Assembly: GCF_900105385.1 (NCBI RefSeq)
Contig: NZ_LT629772.1
Span: forward strand, 5,208,001 to 5,272,000
DNA length: 64,000 nucleotides
Direction: 5' to 3'
Source of the DNA: Microlunatus soli
GTDB taxonomy: Bacteria; Actinomycetota; Actinomycetes; Propionibacteriales; Propionibacteriaceae
A program made the position numbers and the translations under genes. The notes beneath the pieces were generated by a model. That model was not told the origin of the DNA. It was given only the letters and a program-made list of their open reading frames with translations, and did no database searches. Shown one piece after another: positions 51,246 through 64,000 of the stretch. Position 1 is the stretch's first letter. Each line of letters opens with the position of its first letter.

Positions 51246-51422
51246 ATCATCTCGCGTGGAGACGATGAGCGCAGACGCGGCCGTGGATGGCGTTCACCCG
51301 ATACGGGCGACGACATCGGTGCAGCACCTGTCGACGATGAGTCCTGCTGGTATCTCGAATCGTCGTACGGACAGCGAACCGACGCCTTTGGGCGCCCGGC
51401 GAGCGCAACTGATGGAGGTATT

Positions 51423-53744
51423 GTGGTCACCGAATTCAATGGCGTCATCAACCTTGATGTACGCGATTCGATCCCCGACTGGGCTCCCTACGAGTTGGCC
51501 AAGGCGCCGGACGGCGCGCCCAACGTGTTGGTCGTGCTCTATGACGACACCGGGATGGCCTCGTGGTCGCCCTACGGCGGTCGGATCAACATGCCGACGC
51601 TGCAGCGGTTGGCCGACAACGGCCTGACCTACACCCAGTGGCACACCACTGCACTCTGCTCGCCGACTCGGTCCTGCTTCCTGACCGGCCGCAACCACAC
51701 CACCAACCGGGTCGCGGCGATCATGGAAGCCACCAACGGCTTCCCCGGGGCCGCCGGGCGGATCCCGGACGAGTGCGCGACCATCGGCCATATCCTGCAG
51801 GACAACGGCTACAGCACCTTCTGGTTGGGCAAGGATCACAACGTCCCGGAGGAGGACAACTCCAGCGGTGGCAGCCGATCGCAATGGCCGCTGCAGATGG
51901 GCTTCGACCGGTTCTACGGCTTCCTCGGGGGCGAAACCAACAACTGGTACCCCGATCTCGTCGAGGACAATCATTTCGTCGATCAGCCCTACACCCCTGA
52001 GGAGGGGTACCACCTATCCAAGGACCTGGCCGATCAAGGCATCAAGATGATCCGTGATCAACAGGCGGCCAACCCGTCTCGGCCTTGGTACATGTGGTTC
52101 TGTCCCGGTGCCAACCATGCTCCACACCATGCCCCGCAGGAATACATCGACAAGTACAAGGGGCAGTTCGACGACGGCTATGACGCCTACCGTGGTTGGG
52201 TTCTGGGGCGGATGATCGAGCGTGGAGTGTTGCCCGAAGGCACCGAACTGACTCCGTTCAATCCGGTTCCGGATGATCAAGCCAACCCGGCTGACCAGGT
52301 ACGGCCGTGGGACGAGTTGAGCGATGACGAGAAGCAGCTGTTCTCCCGGATGGCGGAGGTGTTCGCCGGCTTCAGTGAGTACACCGATGCCCAGATCGGC
52401 CGGATGGTGGACTACTTGGAGGAGACCGGCCAGCTGGACAACACCCTCATCTTCTATTGCGCCGACAACGGAGCCTCCGGCGAAGGTTCGCCGGACGGCT
52501 CGGTGAACGAGAACAAGTTCTTCAACAACTATCCAGACGACGTCTCCGAGAACTTGGCGATGCTGGACAAGCTGGGCAGCGCTGAGACCTACAACCACTA
52601 CCCGACCGGGTGGGCGGCGGCATTCAGCACACCGTTCCAGATGTTCAAGCGGTACAGCCAATACTCCGGTGGCACCTGCGATCCGATGATCATCCATTGG
52701 CCCAAGGGCATCAGGGCGAAGGGAGAGATCAGACATCAGTATCATCACGCCACCGATATCGTGCCGACGATCCTGGAGGTAGCAGGCCTGGAGATGCCGG
52801 CGGTCTATCGCGGGGTCGACCAGCAGCCGGTCGCCGGTGTGTCGATGCGCTACAGCTTCGACCAGGCCGACGCGCCGACCCGGAAGAAGGTCCAGTACTA
52901 CAACATGCTCGGTACTCGGGGAGTCTGGAAGGACGGCTGGAAGGCAGCTGCCACCCATGCTCCGATCACAGGAAAGGGCCACTTCGATCAGGACAAGTGG
53001 GAGTTGTATCACGTGGACGAGGATCGGTCGGAGTCCAAGGACCTGGCTGCGGAGCAACCGGAGAAACTGCAGGAGCTGATCGACGTCTGGTTCGCCGAAG
53101 CCAAGGCCTACAATGGGCTGCCACTGGACGACCGGACCGCGATGGAGCAGCTGACCATCGACCGCCCACAGGCCGAACCAAGGCGCAGCCGCTACATCTA
53201 CTATCCGGGCACCAGCGCCGTTCCGGAAGGCGTTGCCGTTAATGTCCGTGGCCGGTCGTTCAAGATCATCGCCGACGTCGACCTGAGTGAGGGTGCCGAA
53301 GGGGTGTTGTTTGCCCACGGTTCACGATTTGGCGGTCACGCACTCTTCCTCGCCGACGGTGCCCTGCATTACGTCTACAACTTTCTCGGGATTCCGCCGG
53401 AACAGGAGTTCGTCTCGGAACGGATCACTCCCGGGCCGCATGCGCTGGGGATGGAGTTCACTCGGGAGAAGGCCGGCGAGCACAAGGAGTCGGTGGGCGC
53501 GACCAAGCTCTACGTCGACGATCAGGTGGTGGCGGAGGGGCCGATGCGAGCTCAGGTCGGCAAGTTCACGCTGTGTGGCGACGGTCTGTGCATCGGTTTC
53601 GACAGCGCCGATTCGGTGAGTAGGAGCTATCGGGCTCCGTTCACATTCACTGGCGGCAAGATCATCGGGGTCGGCGTCGACATCGGGGACGAAGGTTACC
53701 TCGATCTGGAGACCGAGGCGATGGCCGCGCTGGCCCGTGACTGA
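51423..53744 (+). CDS. Arylsulfatase, FGly type
   Basis: 773 aa from GTG 51423 (GGAGG at 5 bases). APNVLVVLYDDTGMASWSPYGG carries the first metal ligands, CSPTRSCFLTGRN is the CxPxR motif whose Cys becomes formylglycine, and GKDHNVPEEDN and FYCADNGASGEGSPDG complete the active site. The last ~130 residues form the beta-rich lectin-like domain (FAHGSRFGGHALFLADGALHYVYNFLG). No signal peptide is seen. Hydrolyses sulfate esters; the maturase is not in the window. Large insert after HHAPQEYIDKYKGQFDDGYD is typical of the long arylsulfatases. Confidence 0.92.
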   Translation: MVTEFNGVINLDVRDSIPDWAPYELAKAPDGAPNVLVVLYDDTGMASWSPYGGRINMPTLQRLADNGLTYTQWHTTALCSPTRSCFLTGRNHTTNRVAAIMEATNGFPGAAGRIPDECATIGHILQDNGYSTFWLGKDHNVPEEDNSSGGSRSQWPLQMGFDRFYGFLGGETNNWYPDLVEDNHFVDQPYTPEEGYHLSKDLADQGIKMIRDQQAANPSRPWYMWFCPGANHAPHHAPQEYIDKYKGQFDDGYDAYRGWVLGRMIERGVLPEGTELTPFNPVPDDQANPADQVRPWDELSDDEKQLFSRMAEVFAGFSEYTDAQIGRMVDYLEETGQLDNTLIFYCADNGASGEGSPDGSVNENKFFNNYPDDVSENLAMLDKLGSAETYNHYPTGWAAAFSTPFQMFKRYSQYSGGTCDPMIIHWPKGIRAKGEIRHQYHHATDIVPTILEVAGLEMPAVYRGVDQQPVAGVSMRYSFDQADAPTRKKVQYYNMLGTRGVWKDGWKAAATHAPITGKGHFDQDKWELYHVDEDRSESKDLAAEQPEKLQELIDVWFAEAKAYNGLPLDDRTAMEQLTIDRPQAEPRRSRYIYYPGTSAVPEGVAVNVRGRSFKIIADVDLSEGAEGVLFAHGSRFGGHALFLADGALHYVYNFLGIPPEQEFVSERITPGPHALGMEFTREKAGEHKESVGATKLYVDDQVVAEGPMRAQVGKFTLCGDGLCIGFDSADSVSRSYRAPFTFTGGKIIGVGVDIGDEGYLDLETEAMAALARD

Positions 53745-53856: not shown

Positions 53857-56637
53857 TCAGAGCAGATGCAGACCGCGGGCGATGGAGAGCGCCTCACTGC
53901 GCCGGGAGGCGCCGAGCTTGGCGTACAGGTTCGAGACATGGGTCTTGACAGTGTTCTCCGAGACGAACAGTTCGACGCCGATGTCGGCATAGGTCGAGCC
54001 GCGGGCAAGCTCTCGCAACACATCCCGCTCACGGGAGCTCAACACCGGCCGGACCGGTAACTCGGTCGCTCGGATCTGCTCCGACGGCGAGGGCATCGTC
54101 GCGGCACAGATCGCGCTCAGGTCGGCGCGGCTCTGCATGGCCGCTGCAACTTCATGGACCCAGGGACTCGCGCTGGTCTCCCTCAGCGCCGCCAGCAACA
54201 CCTGCATCGGGGTGCCGTGCCGGCAGAGTCCGAGGAAGACCAGCGCATTGCGCCGGATCGCGGTCTCGGCGGCGGCTTCCCGGAGGCGACCCAACGCCTC
54301 CGAAGCTCGACCCGAGGCGTCCAAGAGTTGTGCCAAGCAGGTCAGGGCGAGCGCGCGGGTGCCGGCTGCGCGTTGATGCGTCGTGGTTACGGCCAGCTCG
54401 AAGTCCTCCAGGGCGGATTGGGGCTGACCGCTGAGGTCGGATCGGATGCCGGCGAGGAGGTGCTTTTCGCCGATCATGCCGGCCGCTCCGAGATCGGCCT
54501 CGATCGCGCCGACCCCGTCGACGTCGCCGACGAGTGCGGCAAGGCAGCCCCGCTCGACCTGAATGACCACCTTGAGATGTGACGGAAGATCATCGGCGAT
54601 TGGAAGGTCGAACGGCATCGTCAGGATCTGCTCGGCCCCGATCAGATCACCTGCACCGGCGCGGGCACGTGCCTCATACAAACGGGCCCAGAACTGGCTG
54701 CAAAAGTCTGTCGGGTGCAGCGAGCGGTGTCGCGCGGGGCGGCCACTGTTGGTATCGGTCCACGGCACGTCGGCCATCGTGGCCAGGTCGTGGACCAGCG
54801 ACGCGCGGTCGGCGGTGTAGCCGGTGACCGGATACGGTCCCGCGAGCGACGCTTCGTCGGCGAGCAGCGCGGCAGTGTGTTCGCGGCCCAGCATCAGCTG
54901 GGTCATCGCCAGGTAGCTGGTCGCCGATGCCGCGATGGCTGACAGTCGTGGCACGTTACGGCACAACCCGATGCAAGCTGTCAGATTGCGCTCGGCGCTG
55001 TCCAGCTCGCCGAGCCAGTTCTGCGCCGCGCCAAGCTCGATCAGCAGGATGGTCACCAACCCGAACTGTGTGGACCCCGTGTGCTCCCCGTCCGCACCGA
55101 ATCGCGCGATCACGTCTTGAGCCTTGGTTGTGACGGCCCGCAGCTGCTCCCGAGTGATCCGTGCCTGCATCAGCTCGGCACAGACGGCCTCCAGATCGTT
55201 GGATCGATCTGTCGAATGCTGCACGATCCGGTCGAGCCAATGCCGGGCGGCGTCGACGTCACCGGCGATCCATCGCTCGACCGCGATCGGGAACCAGGCG
55301 TCGGGATAGTCGGCCACCTGTTCGGGGAAGGTCCGAACGAAGCGGGAGATCGCCTTGCCCTGGCCGCAGGCGATCATCGCGATGCCATCATCGGCGAGCA
55401 ACGCGGCAGCCTCATCTGCCAGGTTGATCGATATCAGTCGTTCGAATGCTCGGTCGGCCACTCCTCGAGCAAGATCGAGATGGACGGCGACGGCAACGGT
55501 TCCGCGAGCCTGCTCGACATCGACGCCTCCGGCCGCCATCCGTCGCCGCACCACCTCGCGGAGCAGCGGATGGATGCGATACCAGGCAGCGGCGTCGGGA
55601 TCGCTCCCGTCGGCGGTCTGCGATCCGGCCCGTTCCGGTCTGCTCACCCTGGTCACCAGTAGCCCGTCGGACGCCATCTCCGCCAGCAGTTGCGGAGCCT
55701 CCGGATTTCGCGACAAATGGGCCGCGGTGTCAGCGGCAACGACCACCTCACCGGCAACGCACAACAGCAGGTGACGTTCGCGATGCGAGAGCGCGGCCAT
55801 CACCTCGTTGGCGACCCGGTCGGCGAAGCGTGTGTCACCGGCACCGAAATTGGCCGCCATCTGCAGCGGGTCGGGAGCCATCCGTACACTCCGCGCAGCC
55901 AGCACGACCGCGGCGCACCAGCCGCCGGCCCGACTGATGATCGCCTCAGTCACGGCCGCGTCGTCAGTCCGTGCATGCTGCTGGATCAGCTCGGTCGCCT
56001 CGTCGTCTGCCAGGCGCAGCACGTCGCCGCGGATAACCGCCAGGTCGCCGAGGAGCTGGGCGACCAGGCTGGTCTGCAGGAGATCCCAACGAGACAGCAA
56101 CAACAATCGAAGTGAGGCGGGCTCGTGGCTCAGCCGTTCGTCGATGAAGCGGATCGTCGCGGCCGGCAGCCGCTGGGCGTCGTCGATCACGATCAGGTTG
56201 GGCGCAGCCGGGGCCGCGGTCGAAGCGTCCGCGTTCCGGGCAAGTCCGTCATCCGTGCCATCGCGGCCCGGGTCGGCCTCGATGATCGCCTGCGAGGGTC
56301 CGGCCGTAGCGGCGACTTGTCCGCGATCGATCAAGGACGCCAGCCGGCCAGGATTCCAAGCTGCACCGGCATCGATCCAGATAGCCGCGGGGCTGCCGTC
56401 GGCGTCATCCATGGTGCGGTGCCGATGGCGGACCCAGCCGGCGACGCCGAGGGTCTTGCCCGCGCCGGCCGGGGCGATGAGCATCGTCACGGGTGAATCG
56501 GCGTGGTCCAGTTCGTTCCACAGCACGTCGCGAGGGAGATAGCCACGCGGTAGTCGAGGCGGGGTTCCGGGTTCGAGATGGCGACTGTAGTTGAAATGTA
56601 CCGATTCTGGTTGAAGGTGACGAATGTCTGAGCTCAT
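53857..56637 (-). CDS. Large ATP-binding LuxR (LAL/MalT-type) regulator
   Basis: 926 aa from ATG 56637 (an in-frame ATG at 56736 adds 33 residues; the start is uncertain). LIAPAGAGKTLG is a Walker A and NLIVIDDAQRLP a Walker B; a winged-helix like segment and TPR-like repeats (about 350-800) follow, and the C-terminus is a LuxR helix-turn-helix (LSSRERDVLRELARGSTYADIGVELFVSENTVKTHVSNLYAKLGASRRSEALSIA). Such proteins activate genes when an inducer binds the repeat region. Possible targets are the sulfatase or the dyad-controlled block next door, but no site evidence links them. Confidence 0.85.
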   Translation of the reverse strand: MSSDIRHLQPESVHFNYSRHLEPGTPPRLPRGYLPRDVLWNELDHADSPVTMLIAPAGAGKTLGVAGWVRHRHRTMDDADGSPAAIWIDAGAAWNPGRLASLIDRGQVAATAGPSQAIIEADPGRDGTDDGLARNADASTAAPAAPNLIVIDDAQRLPAATIRFIDERLSHEPASLRLLLLSRWDLLQTSLVAQLLGDLAVIRGDVLRLADDEATELIQQHARTDDAAVTEAIISRAGGWCAAVVLAARSVRMAPDPLQMAANFGAGDTRFADRVANEVMAALSHRERHLLLCVAGEVVVAADTAAHLSRNPEAPQLLAEMASDGLLVTRVSRPERAGSQTADGSDPDAAAWYRIHPLLREVVRRRMAAGGVDVEQARGTVAVAVHLDLARGVADRAFERLISINLADEAAALLADDGIAMIACGQGKAISRFVRTFPEQVADYPDAWFPIAVERWIAGDVDAARHWLDRIVQHSTDRSNDLEAVCAELMQARITREQLRAVTTKAQDVIARFGADGEHTGSTQFGLVTILLIELGAAQNWLGELDSAERNLTACIGLCRNVPRLSAIAASATSYLAMTQLMLGREHTAALLADEASLAGPYPVTGYTADRASLVHDLATMADVPWTDTNSGRPARHRSLHPTDFCSQFWARLYEARARAGAGDLIGAEQILTMPFDLPIADDLPSHLKVVIQVERGCLAALVGDVDGVGAIEADLGAAGMIGEKHLLAGIRSDLSGQPQSALEDFELAVTTTHQRAAGTRALALTCLAQLLDASGRASEALGRLREAAAETAIRRNALVFLGLCRHGTPMQVLLAALRETSASPWVHEVAAAMQSRADLSAICAATMPSPSEQIRATELPVRPVLSSRERDVLRELARGSTYADIGVELFVSENTVKTHVSNLYAKLGASRRSEALSIARGLHLL

Positions 56638-57009
56638 TGAATGACCTGCCGTAGTTGAATGGGCAGGCACCGCTGCGGCTACTCGGGCGCCTGTCGATCG
56701 TCGACGGGGTCGGGTCCGGGCCCGACCCCGATCCAACCTGCGGAAATCCCCTCAGGAAGTGAATGCTAGGGCAAATCGCGTCGATCCGACAGAGGATGCA
56801 GGCCGTTTGATCTTGATGATCAGGTGGGCAACGTCATCTTGCCGTATAAACGGCATCGGTGTCGTCAGCGGGATCAGGCTCGGATTCCGGGTTGAAAGTC
56901 ACGCCGATAGCACCGTGGTGCGATAGAATTCCACGCGCCATATGTCACGTCTGGTTGGGCTCGCGTCGGGTCTGTCTGCTGAAACCCGACTGGCCGGGGT
57001 TTCCTGTCG
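56638..57009. other. Gene-free 372-base gap with small dyads
   Basis: No coding frame found. Contains gaaacccgactggccggggtttc (56981-57003), a weak 7-bp hairpin close to the DUF7144 stop, and GCCGT-ataa-ACGGC (56841-56854), which may be an operator near the LuxR gene. Confidence 0.4.
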
Positions 57010-57426
57010 TCAGCGGCGGCGCAACTGTGTGCACAGCGCCCAGATCACGAAGACGTCGAAGGCGACGGTCAGCAGGCTCCAGAGTGGGTAGTACGGCATG
57101 AAAGCAAAGTTGGCGAGAGCGCTCAACCCAGCGAGGATCACGCCGGCGACCAAGGCCCACGACTTGGAGATGAGCACTCCGCCGCCGACGACGAGGGAGA
57201 ACACGCCGATGACCAGGTGGATCCAACCCCACGCGGTCAGATCGAACGCGTAGCTGTAATCGAGGCCGGTGACGTACACCTTGTCACGAGCTATCGCCGC
57301 GATTCCCTGCAAGACTTGGAACAGCCCGGCGGTGATCAGCATCGTGCCGCCGAAGATTGTCCCGGTGAACGCCGCAGTGCTCTTCGCGGAAAGATCGAAA
57401 TCTCCCGTGTCAGAGGTCGTGCTCAT
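57010..57426 (-). CDS. DUF7144-like membrane protein
   Basis: 138 aa from ATG 57426 (GGGAGG at 5 bases). Four helices: FTGTIFGGTMLITAGLFQVLQGIAAI, LTAWGWIHLVIGVFSLVVGGGVLISKSW, LVAGVILAGLSALANFAFMPYYPLW and LLTVAFDVFVIWAL. The WGWIHLxxG and PYYPLWS pattern is common in actinobacterial membrane proteins of unknown function. It stands in the dyad-controlled block (site 57503-57521 upstream). Confidence 0.75.
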   Translation of the reverse strand: MSTTSDTGDFDLSAKSTAAFTGTIFGGTMLITAGLFQVLQGIAAIARDKVYVTGLDYSYAFDLTAWGWIHLVIGVFSLVVGGGVLISKSWALVAGVILAGLSALANFAFMPYYPLWSLLTVAFDVFVIWALCTQLRRR

Positions 57427-57502
57427 GAAACCTCCCAATGCCGTCACACAACAGATGTCGTGCATGTCGACTTCAACGTAGGGTGGCGATGGCATTTGGG
57501 GA

Positions 57503-57521
57503 CTCACCTGTAACGGGTGAG
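57503..57521. promoter_or_regulatory. 19-bp dyad, copy A (upstream of DUF7144-like gene)
   Basis: ctcacctgtaacgggtgag. Left and right arms CTCACC/GGTGAG are perfect; 77-95 bases before ATG 57426. On the gene strand a TACGTT box follows exactly 22 bases after the site. Confidence 0.7.
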
Positions 57522-57630
57522 CTGCATTGATGCTTCGATGATCTGCCCTGACCGGACCGAGGTCCAGCATATGAAATACCATATCAGAAATAATTCGACT
57601 TCGCTTCGACGGTCAGCTCCGACCGGTGCG

Positions 57631-59406
57631 TCAGTCATCCACGTCGGCGATCGAATCGCCGGTTGACGGCCCGGCCGTTCGGAGTCGCTGCAGCGCCTTG
57701 TCGACTGTCGCGGTCACCCAGCCAGCCCGTTGGTAGTCCACGAACCAATCCGATCTTGCCATTCGTTGTGCCGTGGCTGTCGGGAACGCGGCCAGTACCA
57801 GTCGCACGTCGTCCTTGATCAGCTTGTCGGCCAGATCGTGCAGTGTCTGAACGAGCGGGACGGTGACGTCGCGGACTGCGGTTCCCTCCAGGACGACCCC
57901 GTAGGTGCCTTCCGGATGGGCAGCACTGAGAACGGCGTCGGCCGTGGCATTGGCATTGCCGGCATAGAGGGAGCCGTCCAGATGCAGGAGCACGACGCCG
58001 GGTGGTGGGAACGAGTCATCGTCAGTGCCGCTGCCGGCGGACGGCGGATTGGTCGTCCATCCCTCGCTCGATCGGTAGAGCGGCCGAGCTCGCGCCCGAT
58101 TGACGTTGCGGACCACCAGGGCAAGAGTCAGCACCACACCGACGGCGACGCCGATCAGCATCCCGCCGACAAGCCCGATCACCGCTACGACCACGGCAAC
58201 CCACAACTCGGCTCTGTCGATCCGGGCGTACAGCAGAAAGTCGGCCGGTTTCAACAGTCCGAGAATGGCCACCATCACCATGGCCGCGAGGATCGCCCGT
58301 GGCAGATTGTCCAACAGCGGCGCCAACAGCAGCGCGACCAAGATCGCCAATGCTGCTGTGACCAGAGCTGCCAGCTGGGTGCGGGCACCGGCCCGGAGGT
58401 TCACCGCCGATTGGGAGAAGCCACCGGCCGGCGGCAGAGTCTGCGTGAGTCCGCCGCCGAGAGCGGCCACTCCGGTGGCCAACAGTTCTTGATCAACACT
58501 GATGGTGGGTTCGTCGCGCCGGCGGTTCGTGCGGGCAACCACCACCGTCTCCAGGAAGGCCATCACAGCGATCGCAAACGCGCCTGGAAGCAGACTGACA
58601 ATATCGGCCGGGACCGGAGCGGTCGGGACCGGTAGGCCGGTCGGGACCTTGTCGATCAGACTCAGCCCGGCACCGCCCGCGGTGGTTTCCAGCGGCGTCA
58701 TGATCACCAGCGCGATGCCCGCGACAACCACCACCAAGGGACCAGGAATTCTCGGAGCCAGCCGACGTAGACCCAGCAGGACGGCGAGTGCGACGACGGA
58801 GACGACGGTGGTGATCACGTCGAGGTCTTCCAGGTGTCCCAGGACGTTTCCGATCGTGACGAAGAAGCCGGCTTCGCTGACGTCGGACATTCCCAGTAGC
58901 GCGGGTAATTGAGACGCGGCGACCGTGAGCCCGACACCGATTCGGATGCCGGTCATGGTGGCCGGCGAGATGATCTCCACCAGGGACCCGAGCCGCAGCA
59001 GACGCATGATCAACAGACAGCCGCCGACCATCAGAGTGAGGGTGAATGCTGCCCGCAGCAGATCGTGGTCGGAAAGCTGCCCGGCATTGGGCAGCTCGGC
59101 CAGCGTGGTGGACACCAGGACGGCGATGGTGGACGTCGTCGAGACACTGATCGTCCGCGCTCCGCCCAACAATGCGTACAGGATGGCCGGCACCATGCAG
59201 GTGTAGAGGCCGATCTGGACCGGCAGTCCCGCGATCGTCGAATAGGCCATCGCCTGTGGGATCACGACGGTGCCGGCGGCCAGGCCCGCGATCACGTCGC
59301 CGCGAATCCAGGACCGGCGGTAGCCCTGCAACGACGGCGCGAGCCAGGCGGGGCGTCGACTCGTCCTCGCAGTGCCGGATCCCGCAGTGTCAGATGAGGT
59401 GGCCAC
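57631..59406 (-). CDS. SulP-family anion transporter with STAS domain (first of two)
   Basis: 591 aa from GTG 59406. Transport domain (about 30-420): DVIAGLAAGTVVIPQAMAYSTIAGLPVQIGLYTCMVPAILYALLGGAR, and LPPAGGFSQSAVNLRAGARTQLAALVTAALAILVALLLAPLLDNLPRAILAAMVMVAILGL, the SulP signature. C-terminal STAS domain (about 460-560: GVVLLHLDGSLYAGNANATADAV). SulP proteins import sulfate, bicarbonate or other anions. GTG is likely leaderless. Copy B of the dyad lies 34-52 bases upstream. Confidence 0.88.
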   Translation of the reverse strand: MATSSDTAGSGTARTSRRPAWLAPSLQGYRRSWIRGDVIAGLAAGTVVIPQAMAYSTIAGLPVQIGLYTCMVPAILYALLGGARTISVSTTSTIAVLVSTTLAELPNAGQLSDHDLLRAAFTLTLMVGGCLLIMRLLRLGSLVEIISPATMTGIRIGVGLTVAASQLPALLGMSDVSEAGFFVTIGNVLGHLEDLDVITTVVSVVALAVLLGLRRLAPRIPGPLVVVVAGIALVIMTPLETTAGGAGLSLIDKVPTGLPVPTAPVPADIVSLLPGAFAIAVMAFLETVVVARTNRRRDEPTISVDQELLATGVAALGGGLTQTLPPAGGFSQSAVNLRAGARTQLAALVTAALAILVALLLAPLLDNLPRAILAAMVMVAILGLLKPADFLLYARIDRAELWVAVVVAVIGLVGGMLIGVAVGVVLTLALVVRNVNRARARPLYRSSEGWTTNPPSAGSGTDDDSFPPPGVVLLHLDGSLYAGNANATADAVLSAAHPEGTYGVVLEGTAVRDVTVPLVQTLHDLADKLIKDDVRLVLAAFPTATAQRMARSDWFVDYQRAGWVTATVDKALQRLRTAGPSTGDSIADVDD

Positions 59407-59439
59407 AACTCAGCAGACCTCGGTCGGGCGGCGTGGCGG

Positions 59440-59458
59440 CTCACCCGTGATGGGTGAG
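59440..59458. promoter_or_regulatory. 19-bp dyad, copy B (upstream of first SulP)
   Basis: ctcacccgtgatgggtgag, perfect 7-bp arms CTCACCC/GGGTGAG, between the SulP start (34-52 bases away) and the next small gene stop. On the gene strand a TCTGCT box follows 22 bases after it and the GTG start comes 5 bases later. Confidence 0.75.
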
Positions 59459-59463
59459 GCCGC

Positions 59464-59646
59464 TCAGCCGGCCAGCTGCGTGACGGCGTGAATGATCAGA
59501 TACGTCAAAGCGGCCAGCGCTCCGGCGACCGCGGCGATGATCAACAACATCGCTGCGATGCCCTCGACGACAGTGAGCACGACACCTGGGCCACGTCGCC
59601 GGTCGCTCGGCCACCGGCGGTAGGCCGGTGGAGGTGGATTCGACAT
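59464..59646 (-). CDS. 60-aa single-helix membrane protein
   Basis: A proline- and arginine-rich start (PPPPAYRRWPSDRRR) precedes one helix (VVLTVVEGIAAMLLIIAAVAGALAALTYLIIHAV). ATG 59646 has GAGGACAAG upstream. No family recognised. Lies between DUF1269 and SulP, probably one of the block's small membrane genes. Confidence 0.6.
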   Translation of the reverse strand: MSNPPPPAYRRWPSDRRRGPGVVLTVVEGIAAMLLIIAAVAGALAALTYLIIHAVTQLAG

Positions 59647-59701
59647 CTTGTCCTCTGTCCGTCGTTTCGTTGATCAAGAGGGCATTCGGCCGTCAGCGAG
59701 C

Positions 59702-59740
59702 GAAGTCGCCGACCCGAACCAAATCTGGGTCGGCGACTTC
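59702..59740. terminator. Hairpin after DUF1269
   Basis: GAAGTCGCCGACCC - 11 bases - GGGTCGGCGACTTC: perfect 14-bp stem just after the DUF1269 stop (59747). No T run, but the stem is very strong; it separates DUF1269 from the small gene downstream. Confidence 0.7.
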
Positions 59741-59746
59741 ATCGCG

Positions 59747-60241
59747 TCAGTCCTGGAATACCTGCCGCAGGGCCGATTCCTGTTCACCGGACATGTTGGT
59801 GAAGATCAGGTCTGTCGGCTCGTGGCCGGCGAAGGCTTCCTTCACTTTGTCCATCACGGCATCCGAGGTCATCACGAACAGCGCGGACGTCCCCGGTGTC
59901 ACCTGGTCCCGGACTCGATTGATGAAACCATCATCGATCCCGACGTCGGTCAAGGCGCCGGAGATCGCGCCGCCCGCGGCACCGATAGCGGCGCCCAGCA
60001 GCGGCACGAAGAAGATCAGCCCGAACAACAGACCCCAGAACGATCCGCCCAGTGCACCGGCGGCCTTGGTCGACGTGAGCTGGCGAGTCTTCGGCTTCTT
60101 CGCACCCGGCTCCCAGGACACGGTCGCCGCATCATGCACGGTGATCACGTTCTCCTTCGCGAGATTCTGCAGGGTGACCGACGCCTGCTCGGCGCCGAGC
60201 GTCGAGTTGAACTTCCAGACAGTCAGTGTGGCTTGTGCCAT
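59747..60241 (-). CDS. DUF1269 family membrane protein
   Basis: 164 aa. QASVTLQNLAKENVITVHDAATVSWEPG, then a Gly-rich helical pair KAAGALGGSFWGLLFGLIFFVPLLGAAIGAAGGAISGALTDVG and a C-terminal part IDDGFINRVRDQVTPGTSALFVM, the normal DUF1269 order. The family is common in stress operons of actinobacteria; function unknown. Own dyad (copy C) upstream at 60320-60338. Confidence 0.85.
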   Translation of the reverse strand: MAQATLTVWKFNSTLGAEQASVTLQNLAKENVITVHDAATVSWEPGAKKPKTRQLTSTKAAGALGGSFWGLLFGLIFFVPLLGAAIGAAGGAISGALTDVGIDDGFINRVRDQVTPGTSALFVMTSDAVMDKVKEAFAGHEPTDLIFTNMSGEQESALRQVFQD

Positions 60242-60301
60242 CGCTACTCCTCGGTGTGTGCGGGGTGGTTCGTCGTTCGGTATCCGCTGTCCAGCCTGCG
60301 T

Positions 60302-62038
60302 TCACTCCGATCGCGGGGGATCACCCGTTCCTGGTGAGGGGTCGGCGGGTTGACGTGACGGGGAGTCTGCTGCTTCGTCCAGCGTCGTGCGCAACAGCGG
60401 TTCGGATCCAACCTCGGCCGTGGCCAGGACATCACGGACCCGGCCGACATTGCCTGCCAGGACCAGTTCGACACCGCGTGCATTCAGGTCGGCTCGCAGC
60501 TGGACGAGCATGCTCGCCGCGGTCAGGTCGATCAACGGTGTGCTGCGTCCGTCCAGAACGACCACTCGAAGATCGTCGACGTCGGCGGCCAGCTCGTTGA
60601 TCCGGTCGCGGACGTAGTCGGCATTGGCGAACAGCAGCGCCGACTCGACTCGGACGGCGAGGACGCCCGGAAGTGATGGATTGCCGGGATGTCGGCTGAT
60701 GTCGACCCAGAGCCGGTTCGGCTCGTCACCTACCGGGGCCAAGGATGCAATGTGTGGGCGTGAGGTACGAGCGATCAACAGTGCCAACGAAACCGCAATG
60801 CCGATGATCAAGCCGGGCAGGGTGTCGAAGACCAGAACACCGATCAGCGCTGCTACGGCCGCGACGAAGTCGATCCGGGCCGTCAACTGGTAGATCTTGG
60901 CGACCCGGCCGCTCTGCACCCGCCACAGTCGTCGCAGTGCGCGGAAGTCGATCAACTCGAGCACAGCGGCGATGACGACCGCTGCCAAAGTCGCCTCGGG
61001 CAATTTCTGGAACAAGCCGGTCAGGAACAGCAGGGTGACGACAGTCAGCAGCGCCGCCGTGATCGCCGATACTTGCGACTTGGCGCCGGCCGACCCGTTC
61101 ACTGCGGTCTTGGAGAGGCTGCCGTTCACCACCATCCCGGAGGCCAAACCGGCTCCGAGATTGGCCACGCCGAGACCGAGCAGCTCGCGGTTCGGATCGA
61201 TCGAGTAACCCTGTTTGGCGGCATAGGTCTTGGCTGCGCCGAGGCCTTCGGCGAAGCCGAGCAGCATCACGCCGATCGACGGACCGAGCAGATCGAGGAA
61301 ATCCTTGCCACTGATGTCCGGCAACCCGAGGTGGGGCAGTCCGGAGTCGATGTGGCCGACGATCTCCAAGCCGTGCTTGTCGAGATCGAACAGGAAGACC
61401 GCTCCGATGCTGGCCAGCGCAACCAGCAACGAACCGGGCAACAGTGGGATAAATCGCTTCAGGACCAGGACCAGCGCGAGACAGCCGCCGCCGACGGCGA
61501 TCGTCAACAGGTCGACCCCACCGAGGTGCGTGATCACGCTGGCCAGCTTCTCGAAGAAGTTTCCGTGGCCCTTCTCGATCCCCAGCAGGGCGGGAACCTG
61601 GCCGATCATGATCGTCAGCGCCATGCCGATGATGAATCCCTTCAGTACCGGCTCGGAGATGAAGGATGCGAGAAATCCGAGTCGGAGCGCGCCGGCAGCC
61701 AGCGCGACGACTCCGGTCGCGAGCGCCAGCGTCGTACTGAGTGCGATGTAGGCGGCCGGATCACCCTTCGGTGCGACCACGGCGACAACGCCGGCCGACA
61801 GCGCTGCGGTGGCAGACATCGGACTGACGACCAGGTGTCGCGAGGTGCCCAGCAGGGAGTACAGCAGTAGTGACGGTACGGCGGCGTACAGACCGGTGAC
61901 CGGTGGCACGCCGGCTAGCCCGGCGTAGGCCAATGACTCGGGGACGAGTACGGCCCAGACCGTCAGGCCGGCGATCACGTCGTGCCGGACCCAACTGCCG
62001 CGAAAACCGACATAGGACGGTGCGAGAATGCGCGGCAC
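60302..62038 (-). CDS. SulP-family anion transporter with STAS domain (second)
   Basis: 578 aa. Transport domain: DVIAGLTVWAVLVPESLAYAGLAGVPPVTGLYAAVPSLLLYSLLGTSRHLVVSPMSA, and MVVNGSLSKTAVNGSAGAKSQVSAI, then LPEATLAAVVIAAVLELIDF. C-terminal STAS domain GVLAVRVESALLFANADYVRDRI. Different from the first SulP over most of its length, so an old paralogue. The 3' end contains dyad copy C, so its last codons double as the control site of DUF1269. Confidence 0.88.
   Translation of the reverse strand: MPRILAPSYVGFRGSWVRHDVIAGLTVWAVLVPESLAYAGLAGVPPVTGLYAAVPSLLLYSLLGTSRHLVVSPMSATAALSAGVVAVVAPKGDPAAYIALSTTLALATGVVALAAGALRLGFLASFISEPVLKGFIIGMALTIMIGQVPALLGIEKGHGNFFEKLASVITHLGGVDLLTIAVGGGCLALVLVLKRFIPLLPGSLLVALASIGAVFLFDLDKHGLEIVGHIDSGLPHLGLPDISGKDFLDLLGPSIGVMLLGFAEGLGAAKTYAAKQGYSIDPNRELLGLGVANLGAGLASGMVVNGSLSKTAVNGSAGAKSQVSAITAALLTVVTLLFLTGLFQKLPEATLAAVVIAAVLELIDFRALRRLWRVQSGRVAKIYQLTARIDFVAAVAALIGVLVFDTLPGLIIGIAVSLALLIARTSRPHIASLAPVGDEPNRLWVDISRHPGNPSLPGVLAVRVESALLFANADYVRDRINELAADVDDLRVVVLDGRSTPLIDLTAASMLVQLRADLNARGVELVLAGNVGRVRDVLATAEVGSEPLLRTTLDEAADSPSRQPADPSPGTGDPPRSE
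60320..60338. promoter_or_regulatory. 19-bp dyad, copy C (upstream of DUF1269)
   Basis: atcacccgttcctggtgag, arms TCACC/GGTGA, inside the 3' end of the second SulP gene and 79-97 bases before the DUF1269 start, nearly the same distance as copy A. No clear -10 at 22 bases here (CAGGCT at 21 is weak). Confidence 0.6.
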
Positions 62039-62121
62039 GCGGAAACCTCCAGTTCTCGATCAAGATCACCAGGTCCACCCGTGGTCTTCTCGGAACGTAG
62101 GCGGCCGGTGCGGCACCACGC

Positions 62122-62140
62122 GTCACCCGGATCAGGTGAC
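62122..62140. promoter_or_regulatory. 19-bp dyad, copy D (upstream of second SulP)
   Basis: gtcacccggatcaggtgac, arms GTCACC/GGTGAC. It lies 84-102 bases before ATG 62038 and exactly 22 bases before the same TACGTT box seen at copy A. Confidence 0.7.
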
Positions 62141-62192
62141 TTCACCGTGGGCAACGATAGAAGTCGCGAGAGGATGACGGATCCGAGCTCGG

Positions 62193-62780
62193 CTATTGTT
62201 TCCGTCCGCTCGATCTGTCGTCCGCGTCGCGCCGCCCTAAACCGACCGCGGACTGAACGCGATGGCCGAGCACGGTCAGCACGATCCAGGCCGCGCCAAG
62301 CAGCAGCCCGCCGACGGCGGCCCTCGGACGCCACAGGTCACTCAGCGGATCGGGCCATAGCCGGCCAAGTCCCGACAGTGCGAGTGCTGCACCGGCGAAT
62401 GCGGTCAGCCAGCGCAGTACGTGGTGCCGGCGACGGTTGATCAGCAGTCCGCCGAGGAAGCCGGCGGCCGGCACCACAATGATCGCCAACAACCAGTTGT
62501 GGTCGGAGCCGTTGGCCAGTTGGAAGACCTTGGCACCGACGACGGCGCCGAGGCAGACACCGGAGATGAAGAAGACGAACCGAGCCAACAGGAGCGTCGT
62601 GATGAACGCCATCACTGCGCCGGCGCAGCCGACCAGGATCGTCAGCTGCCAGGTCGCGTGCAGAGCGTCGGCGAGCAACCAGGCGGCGCCGAAGCCCGCG
62701 ACGGCGATCGTCACACGCACGGAGCGGGCACCGAGGAAACACAGCGCGGCGCCGATGATCATCAACACGATGCCCGACAT
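62193..62780 (-). CDS. DUF4203-like multi-helix membrane protein
   Basis: 195 aa from ATG 62780. Six to seven helices: GIVLMIIGAALCFLGARSVRVTIAVAGFGAAWLLADAL, ATWQLTILVGCAGAVMAFITTLLLARFVFFISGVCLGAVVGAKVF, WLLAIIVVPAAGFLGGLLINRR, WLTAFAGAALALSGL and AVGGLLLGAAWIVLTVLGHRVQSAVG. The glycine-rich helices resemble TMEM198/DUF4203 proteins. It starts 5 bases after the MscS stop, one operon. Confidence 0.65.
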   Translation of the reverse strand: MSGIVLMIIGAALCFLGARSVRVTIAVAGFGAAWLLADALHATWQLTILVGCAGAVMAFITTLLLARFVFFISGVCLGAVVGAKVFQLANGSDHNWLLAIIVVPAAGFLGGLLINRRRHHVLRWLTAFAGAALALSGLGRLWPDPLSDLWRPRAAVGGLLLGAAWIVLTVLGHRVQSAVGLGRRDADDRSSGRKQ

Positions 62781-62784
62781 CGGA

Positions 62785-63657
62785 CTAGAGCTCTTCACTG
62801 ATACTGATCGCAGCCGGGCCCGGAGGCCAACCAACCGCAACGGTCCCGCCGCGCTCTTCGAAGGCCGTGCCGACGGCCGCCGCAACTCGCGAGCTGGTCT
62901 GCGATCGTCCTTCTGGATGGTGCCAGATCCGGAGTGTGACTGTCAGCTCCGCCGGATCGGCGGCGATCAGCAGGACGGCCGGACGCGGCGAGTCCAGCAC
63001 CCCTCGAACCGAACGGGTCGCGGTCAGCACGATGTCGGTGGCGCTGGCGAGATGATCGTCGACGTGGCCATTGGAGGGTAGGTCGGCCCGCTTGATCCGG
63101 ACGGCGATCTCCGAACGCGCCTGCTTGCTTGCGGAGTAGTTGACCAGCGCACTGTCCATCACAGCATGGTTGGGCAGGTGCGCGGTGCGACCGTCAAGGG
63201 TTTGAAGTACGACCGACCTGGAGTTCAGTCCTTTAACGTATCCGCGGTAGCCGCAGGTCTCCACCAGATCTCCGAGACGAACCGGATGGCGGGCCTGGAT
63301 GACAAGCCCGGCGCCGAAGTTGTCGGCGATGCCACGGATCACCAGATACACCGAGGCCAGCACCAGCAGGGTAGCCGCCAAGACTGGCTGTATCGGTGCC
63401 CCGAGGATGGCCAACAGCACACCGGCCCCCAGGATGAGGACCAGATAGCGAGCGATCCGAGCGGCCTGGAGAGCAAGGTCATCGGCTACCCCGTTGACGC
63501 TGTGCCCGATCCGCAACACGAGTCGATAGACGACGCGGCCGGCGATCACAGTGCCGATCACGGCGACGACCGCCCAGAGCACCGTCGCCAGCGTGAGGTC
63601 GAGCCCGGCCAGCGGAATCTTCACCTCGGCGGGTGGAAAACTCGAGCCGGGGGTCAT
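62785..63657 (-). CDS. MscS-type mechanosensitive channel
   Basis: 290 aa from ATG 63657 (the frame to 63867 is not needed). Three helices: LATVLWAVVAVIGTVIAGRVVYRL, ARIARYLVLILGAGVLLAILG and LAATLLVLASVYLVIRGIADNFGAGLVI (pore). Then the beta domain RLGDLVETCGYRGYVKGLNSRSVVLQTLDGRTAHLPNHAVMDSALVNYS, the MscS signature. It opens at high membrane tension (osmotic downshift). With SulP and other membrane proteins it suits an osmotic/stress response role. Confidence 0.85.
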   Translation of the reverse strand: MTPGSSFPPAEVKIPLAGLDLTLATVLWAVVAVIGTVIAGRVVYRLVLRIGHSVNGVADDLALQAARIARYLVLILGAGVLLAILGAPIQPVLAATLLVLASVYLVIRGIADNFGAGLVIQARHPVRLGDLVETCGYRGYVKGLNSRSVVLQTLDGRTAHLPNHAVMDSALVNYSASKQARSEIAVRIKRADLPSNGHVDDHLASATDIVLTATRSVRGVLDSPRPAVLLIAADPAELTVTLRIWHHPEGRSQTSSRVAAAVGTAFEERGGTVAVGWPPGPAAISISEEL

Positions 63658-63722
63658 GGCGTCGTCGACCGACGTACGGACCGGGTCACTCTTCGAGCAT
63701 CCACGGAGCACAGGGAGGTGGC

Positions 63723-63741
63723 CTCGCCCGAAACCGGTGAG
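63723..63741. promoter_or_regulatory. 19-bp dyad, copy E (MscS / GAP divergent gap)
   Basis: ctcgcccgaaaccggtgag, one mismatch in the left arm. It lies 66-84 bases before MscS and 147-165 bases before the GAP gene, so it can serve both. On the GAP strand TAGCGT starts 21 bases after it. Confidence 0.5.
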
Positions 63742-63887
63742 GGCATCTAGATCGTCCGAACATAGCGTCGGCGGCGTCGACGCGACACTACCGCCAGCCA
63801 GCCGGGCGCCCGCTGGCGGTGAACGAAGGACACAACAGCCGAAGGCCACAGCAGGCGATCGGCACAACAGTCGAAGGCGGCGCGGAC

Positions 63888-64000
63888 ATGGGACAGGTGA
63901 TCGGAGACATTCTGCCGATCGCGCTTGCCATCGCGATCTCTCCGATGCCGATCATGGCCGTGGTGCTGATGTTGATGTCGGCACACGGCCGGGGTGCGTC
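63888..64000 (+). CDS. GAP (Sap, sulfolipid-addressing) family protein, 5' part
   Basis: Open at the window end; 37 residues seen from ATG 63888. ILPIALAIAISPMPIMAVVLMLMSAHGRGA is the typical first helix of the GAP family (PF11139-like, LALgiAlSPlPi), which exports lipids such as sulfolipid-1 in mycobacteria. The rest of the gene lies beyond the window. Divergent from MscS, sharing the copy E dyad. Confidence 0.7.
   Translation, partial: MGQVIGDILPIALAIAISPMPIMAVVLMLMSAHGRGA

Follow-up and report, generated by a model that had tools for sequence, protein, structure and literature searches.

A 17-base dyad ahead of membrane-protein and sulfatase genes in Microlunatus soli, its conservation in two orders, and a neighbouring MalT-like LAL as its probable regulator

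Gene content of the locus

The window, i.e., the whole stretch of 64,000 nucleotides analysed here (Microlunatus soli, contig NZ_LT629772.1, positions 5,208,001 to 5,272,000), carries on its forward strand a sulfatase-family gene (51423..53744, ORF of 773 aa) as a putative target; its NCBIfam arylsulfatase-type matches fall below the cut-off, and it falls into one family with the PF00884 sulfatases encoded in other dyad clusters. It is followed on the reverse strand by the gene for a large LuxR-family protein, here called LAL-A (53857..56736, likely start 56637), which we propose as the regulator. Also on the reverse strand lie genes for a DUF7144 membrane protein (57010..57426; the ORF extends to 57582, the conserved start at 57426 being taken from the sequence and relatives), the permeases SulP1 (57631..59406) and SulP2 (60302..62038), both with a STAS domain, a DUF1269 protein (59747..60241), and an MscS-type channel (62785..63657; ORF to 63867, likely start from the sequence), with a gene for a TM7S3/TM198-like membrane protein (62193..62885) likely downstream of it. 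An SfLAP/GAP gene (PF11139) starts on the forward strand at 63888, as judged by comparison with the related genome G006, and continues past the window end at 64000 (L016:16819-17556).

Directly 3' of the DUF1269 gene, a small ORF of about 60 aa resembling a membrane protein (59464-59646, reverse strand) is possibly co-transcribed with it. A very large repeat protein with an LPNTG-type C-terminal anchor (L017:5657-13768, L051:14746-18999; 2703 aa in the window genome) is kept beside the cluster in G006 as well.

Dyad sites in the window and beyond its end

An earlier note on this DNA had described five sites of the type CTCACC-N7-GGTGAG, and all of them are present, with 0, 0, 1, 2, and 1 mismatches for dyads A to E, respectively. 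On the reverse strand, dyad A (CTCACCTGTAACGGGTGAG, 57503..57521) precedes DUF7144, dyad B (CTCACCCGTGATGGGTGAG, 59440..59458) SulP1, dyad C (ATCACCCGTTCCTGGTGAG, 60320..60338, within the 3' end of SulP2) DUF1269, and dyad D (GTCACCCGGATCAGGTGAC, 62122..62140) SulP2, while dyad E (CTCGCCCGAAACCGGTGAG, 63723..63741) lies between the divergent MscS and GAP genes. Counting over 101 distinct sites refined the dyad to a 17-base palindrome, TCACCCG-N3-CGGGTGA; the sites entering this count had been selected on the core bases but not on the inner CG or the free centre.

The statement that no equally spaced copy occurs elsewhere in the window did not quite hold, since a sixth dyad (TTCACCCGATACGGGCGAC, 51293..51311, forward strand) precedes the sulfatase gene; its 17-mer TCACCCGATACGGGCGA at 51294-51310 has one mismatch to the refined dyad. 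Past the window end, a further dyad at 5,276,523 lies ahead of a DUF6325 gene in a divergent intergenic region, and two more (5,289,902 and 5,289,996) between genes for a HAD hydrolase and an SfLAP/GAP-related protein. Seven sites with the strict core form a block from 5,265,504 to 5,290,013, which begins at window position 57.5 kb and extends 18 kb beyond the window end.

Genome-wide pattern searches with TCACC-N7-GGTGA returned 23 copies in the 6.73-Mb genome, seven of which fall within this one 24.5-kb block beside the LAL-A gene, where 0.058 would be expected from the density elsewhere (Poisson P(>=7) of about 4e-13); seven copies in 25.1 kb likewise compare with 0.049 in Markov shuffles. 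Other spacings (0 to 20) gave 0-3 copies in the 80-kb neighbourhood without enrichment, and the 6-nt-spaced control TCACC-N6-GGTGA, with 45 copies in the genome, had none inside the block. Ten of the 12 copies examined outside the block lie within genes and none of the 12 has a -10 at the right distance, so that these copies look like chance. We regard it as confirmed that the dyad is real and far above chance.

A combined match of dyad and -10 at G000:2624685 was set aside as chance, as it overlaps an iron-box-like sequence. This is the palindrome TTAGGCTTGCCTAA (G000:C1:2624685-2624729).

Promoter geometry

At the spacings given in the earlier note, the -10 sequence TACGTT stands exactly 22 nt after dyad A for DUF7144 (57475..57480) and after dyad D for SulP2 (62094..62099), and the -10-like TCTGCT 22 nt after dyad B for SulP1 (59412..59417), all on the reverse strand; a SulP1 transcript from TCTGCT would be leaderless or nearly so. 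For DUF1269, the -10-like CAGGCT (60293..60298, reverse strand) follows dyad C by 21 nt, and for the sulfatase gene a weak -10-like GACGAT (51333-51338, forward strand) follows the sixth dyad. At dyad E, the strong -10 TAGCGT (63763..63768, forward strand, 21 nt after the dyad) faces the GAP gene, and the MscS promoter (GATGCT) is weak.

This distance is fixed far beyond the window. Among 215 gene-oriented dyads, TANNNT lies 21 nt after the 19-mer in 28 cases and 22 nt in 19 (47/215), compared with an average of about 0.3 at any other offset. A strand-neutral repeat with three LAL-A-anchored sets of loci, the first two of which have several genomes in common, gave 29, 71, and 13 against 0.11, 0.17, and 0.00 per other offset. 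TAGCGT was the most frequent -10 hexamer, and no conserved -35 was found between dyad and -10 among the gene-oriented dyads. Taking the -10 as positions -12 to -7 puts the dyad centre at -43/-44. A site beside or over the -35 region, a fixed distance to the -10, and the lack of a -35 consensus are the features of a class II promoter, so that the class II position near -44 suggested earlier is supported at the sequence level.

A composite search (dyad followed 22 or 23 nt after the 17-mer by TANNNT, at most two mismatches) yielded 54 and 52 matches in six genomes, with 0 and 1 for the controls in the same genomes. In the window genome nearly all matches fall inside the block, while many of those in Nocardioides-type genomes lie on other contigs. 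The term "local" regulon used in the earlier note accordingly fits the window genome but not some of its relatives.

Conservation across genomes

The exact 17-mer occurs in 152 copies spread over 77 of the 392 genomes from the order, many of the copies clustered beside the same gene families, whereas its reversed control was found twice, in one genome, among the matches listed. Clustered sites were detected in Nocardioides, Aeromicrobium, and Kribbella-like genomes and, in another order, in Promicromonospora, Myceligenerans, and Ornithinimicrobium. In G006, dyads stand at orthologous places before SulP1, DUF1269, GAP, and DUF6325. Target families include sulfatase, FGE, PLD/cardiolipin-synthase-like, AI-2E, BrkB, ion channel, aquaporin, SHOCT, and holin-like membrane proteins, and as judged by these families the common theme of the targets appears to be the envelope and ion homeostasis. 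Gene calls in the fetched loci were based on simple ORF scoring, and the data sets overlap in some genomes, e.g., N. lianchengensis (G059 and L225). In the Kribbella-like loci L102, L104, and L111, genes for a trypsin/PDZ protease and cytochrome c are also found among the dyad targets.

LAL-A and its co-occurrence with the dyad

The dyad clusters have a large LuxR-family protein in common, represented in the window by LAL-A. Its ORF of 959 aa carries an invariant GxGKT (Walker A) at residues 58-62 and a GerE HTH at residues 898-952, and thus shows the large size, N-terminal ATP-binding region, and C-terminal LuxR-type (GerE) HTH of a LAL. The MalT model matched residues 31-370 (E 2e-21), with a full-length score of 75.7 against the equivalog cut-off of 537.

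The exact site was present in 25 of 29 genomes with a LAL-A orthologue versus 52 of 363 without (P 8e-16), and two or more sites in 21 of 29 versus 16 of 363 (P 1e-18); these P values assume independent genomes, an assumption that does not hold for relatives. Loci fetched by LAL-A alone contained 16, 51, and 106 sites at up to 0, 1, and 2 mismatches, respectively, versus at most 2, 5, and 9 for the control patterns, while SulP loci without LAL-A showed no excess, with control-like counts of 0, 0, and 5. In Micrococcales loci chosen by LAL-A only (Promicromonospora, Myceligenerans, Brachybacterium, Ornithinimicrobium, Luteipulveratus, and Puerhibacterium), 37 sites at no more than one mismatch were found, compared with none in each of five controls. 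Site and LAL-A gene therefore co-occur across lineages of two orders, though with exceptions. Several sites were found in some genomes without LAL-A, e.g., four in G016 and three in G128; Kribbella-like clusters adjoin a different LAL with 30% identity, and the exact site is absent from many Kribbella-like genomes that have this LAL. These observations count against LAL-A as the regulator, as does the frequent presence of a second LAL next to it.

This second LAL (LAL-B) is often encoded directly beside LAL-A, usually without a strong dyad of its own (L108:3882-6719, L129:12480-15206, L130:5781-8981). In G006, a LAL encoded beside SulP4 (L051:11957-14629) was rejected as the partner, being only 26% identical over part of its length; the true orthologue is G006:3014113-3016845.

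The dyad upstream of LAL-A itself

With identical copies removed, a dyad with a spacer of 2 or 3 nt stands immediately in front of the LAL-A gene in 25 of 59 loci, while spacers of 0, 1, and 4-7 nt account for 0-2 dyads in the same loci. The 2-nt-spaced version was unexpected; it precedes LAL-A in seven loci, in two of which it sits 22-23 nt before TAGCGT or TAGGGT. It occurs mainly before LAL-A itself, and at target sites only two exact copies have this spacing versus 54 with 3 nt. Such dyads, which resemble the operator of the Streptomyces regulator BldM, are located at L125:11983, L271:9793, L247:9823, L132:11918, and L254:9839. In the window genome, no dyad was found directly before LAL-A, which also counts against LAL-A as the regulator; the nearest candidate is dyad A, with DUF7144 lying in between.

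Interpretation and alternative explanations

The 17-base dyad very probably belongs to a conserved regulatory circuit that has so far gone uncharacterised. Based on the sequence comparisons above, we consider it likely that the dyad is the operator of LAL-A and that LAL-A, as a MalT-like activator, controls a regulon for the envelope and ion homeostasis, often together with its own gene. Two C-terminal GerE helix-turn-helix domains of LAL-A would pair on the dyad, one on each 7-bp half-site. Located at about -53 to -35 (centre -43/-44), the dyad would stand in for the -35 element, and LAL-A, acting as a class II activator, would bring RNA polymerase to a TANNNT -10 (typically TAGCGT). In this way it may turn on SulP permeases, DUF7144, DUF1269, DUF6325, and SfLAP/GAP proteins, MscS or other channels, AI-2E and BrkB membrane proteins, cardiolipin-synthase-like PLD enzymes, and a sulfatase with its activating enzyme, and in many species it would control its own gene as well. 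LAL-A presumably responds to some signal, with its activity under the control of ATP or a ligand.

That the sites reflect chance or the composition of a high-GC genome is practically precluded. Loose matches with three mismatches are indeed no commoner across the window than chance (31 versus 50 expected), but strict matches exceed the spacing and reversal controls by far in every data set, and the counts in the LAL-A-anchored and Micrococcales loci together with the fixed -10 distance refute this explanation. A more serious alternative is a BldM-like response regulator of the NarL/FixJ family, encoded elsewhere, which would bind the dyad, with LAL-A being no more than one of the regulon's genes, co-regulated or co-inherited with the others. 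The Group I operator of BldM in Streptomyces venezuelae, TCACcCg-nn-cGgGTGA (TCACcCgnncGgGTGA), at which BldM acts mainly as an activator, has the same half-site (Al-Bassam et al. 2014, PMC4125116), an identity that counts against LAL-A, and the 2-nt-spaced sites before LAL-A in some species point in the same direction. However, the 3-nt spacer is kept almost without exception at target sites, the block of the window genome lacks the 2-nt-spaced core TCACC-N6-GGTGA, and the number of sites follows the presence of LAL-A in two orders, so that we consider such a regulator improbable.

LAL-A or a related LAL might also bind the dyad as a repressor or on/off switch, since the dyad adjoins the -35 region and a protein bound there could also obstruct RNA polymerase. 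A missing -35 and a fixed -10 distance are typical of activator-dependent promoters, while the positions of repressor sites vary. Since no conserved -35 was found between dyad and -10 and the distance to the -10 varies by no more than one base, we favour activation and regard repression as very improbable.

Comparison with known systems

LAL regulators have been termed poorly studied (PMC3282765). Few of them have a defined operator or regulon, and one orthologous group can now be linked to a probable 17-bp operator together with its promoter geometry and a set of targets, kept across two orders. In the limited literature searched, no description of a LAL regulon of this kind was found, no relevant paper on DUF7144 was retrieved, and only BldM papers were relevant to the palindrome. 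"Undescribed", as the regulon was called in the earlier note, can therefore stand for regulon and regulator within the papers searched but not for the half-site, since that of BldM is published. The LAL-A gene next door, the continuation past the window, the conservation in two orders, and the BldM half-site go beyond that note. DUF7144, DUF1269, DUF6325, SfLAP/GAP, and several SulP permeases become testable as one co-regulated programme.

Like LAL-A, MalT of E. coli and SCO0877, SCO7173, and SCO6993 of Streptomyces have about 900 aa, a Walker A motif, a MalT-like N-terminal region, and a C-terminal GerE HTH. MalT boxes, however, are asymmetric single sites arranged as direct repeats, whereas the dyad is a strict palindrome, and no maltose genes are among its targets. 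With NarL-type operators, in which two 7-bp half-sites are arranged head to head as 7-2-7 and bound by GerE HTH domains, the dyad shares this head-to-head arrangement but differs in its 7-3-7 spacing and in the half-site; furthermore, unlike in the NarL type, no receiver domain was detected in LAL-A.

The closest match is the BldM Group I operator, which has the same 7-bp half-site in a palindrome and a regulator of the wider GerE-HTH class. Still, its spacer is 2 nt (16-bp site) instead of the 3 nt seen at target sites, BldM is an orphan response regulator and LAL-A a LAL ATPase, and BldM targets developmental genes while the dyad precedes membrane, ion, and sulfatase genes. Because spacer, regulator type, and targets differ, we did not assign the dyad as a BldM site. 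It is conceivable, though rather unlikely, that LAL-A recognises the BldM half-site in either arrangement, with a 3-nt spacer at the target genes and, in some species, a 2-nt spacer upstream of LAL-A itself, the spacer selecting the GerE-family dimer. If so, spacer length would assign each promoter to LAL-A or to a NarL-type response regulator such as BldM, and a developmental operator code would be linked to the envelope and ion-homeostasis regulon. The two systems offer a natural experiment in how regulators with a common half-site are kept apart by spacer length.
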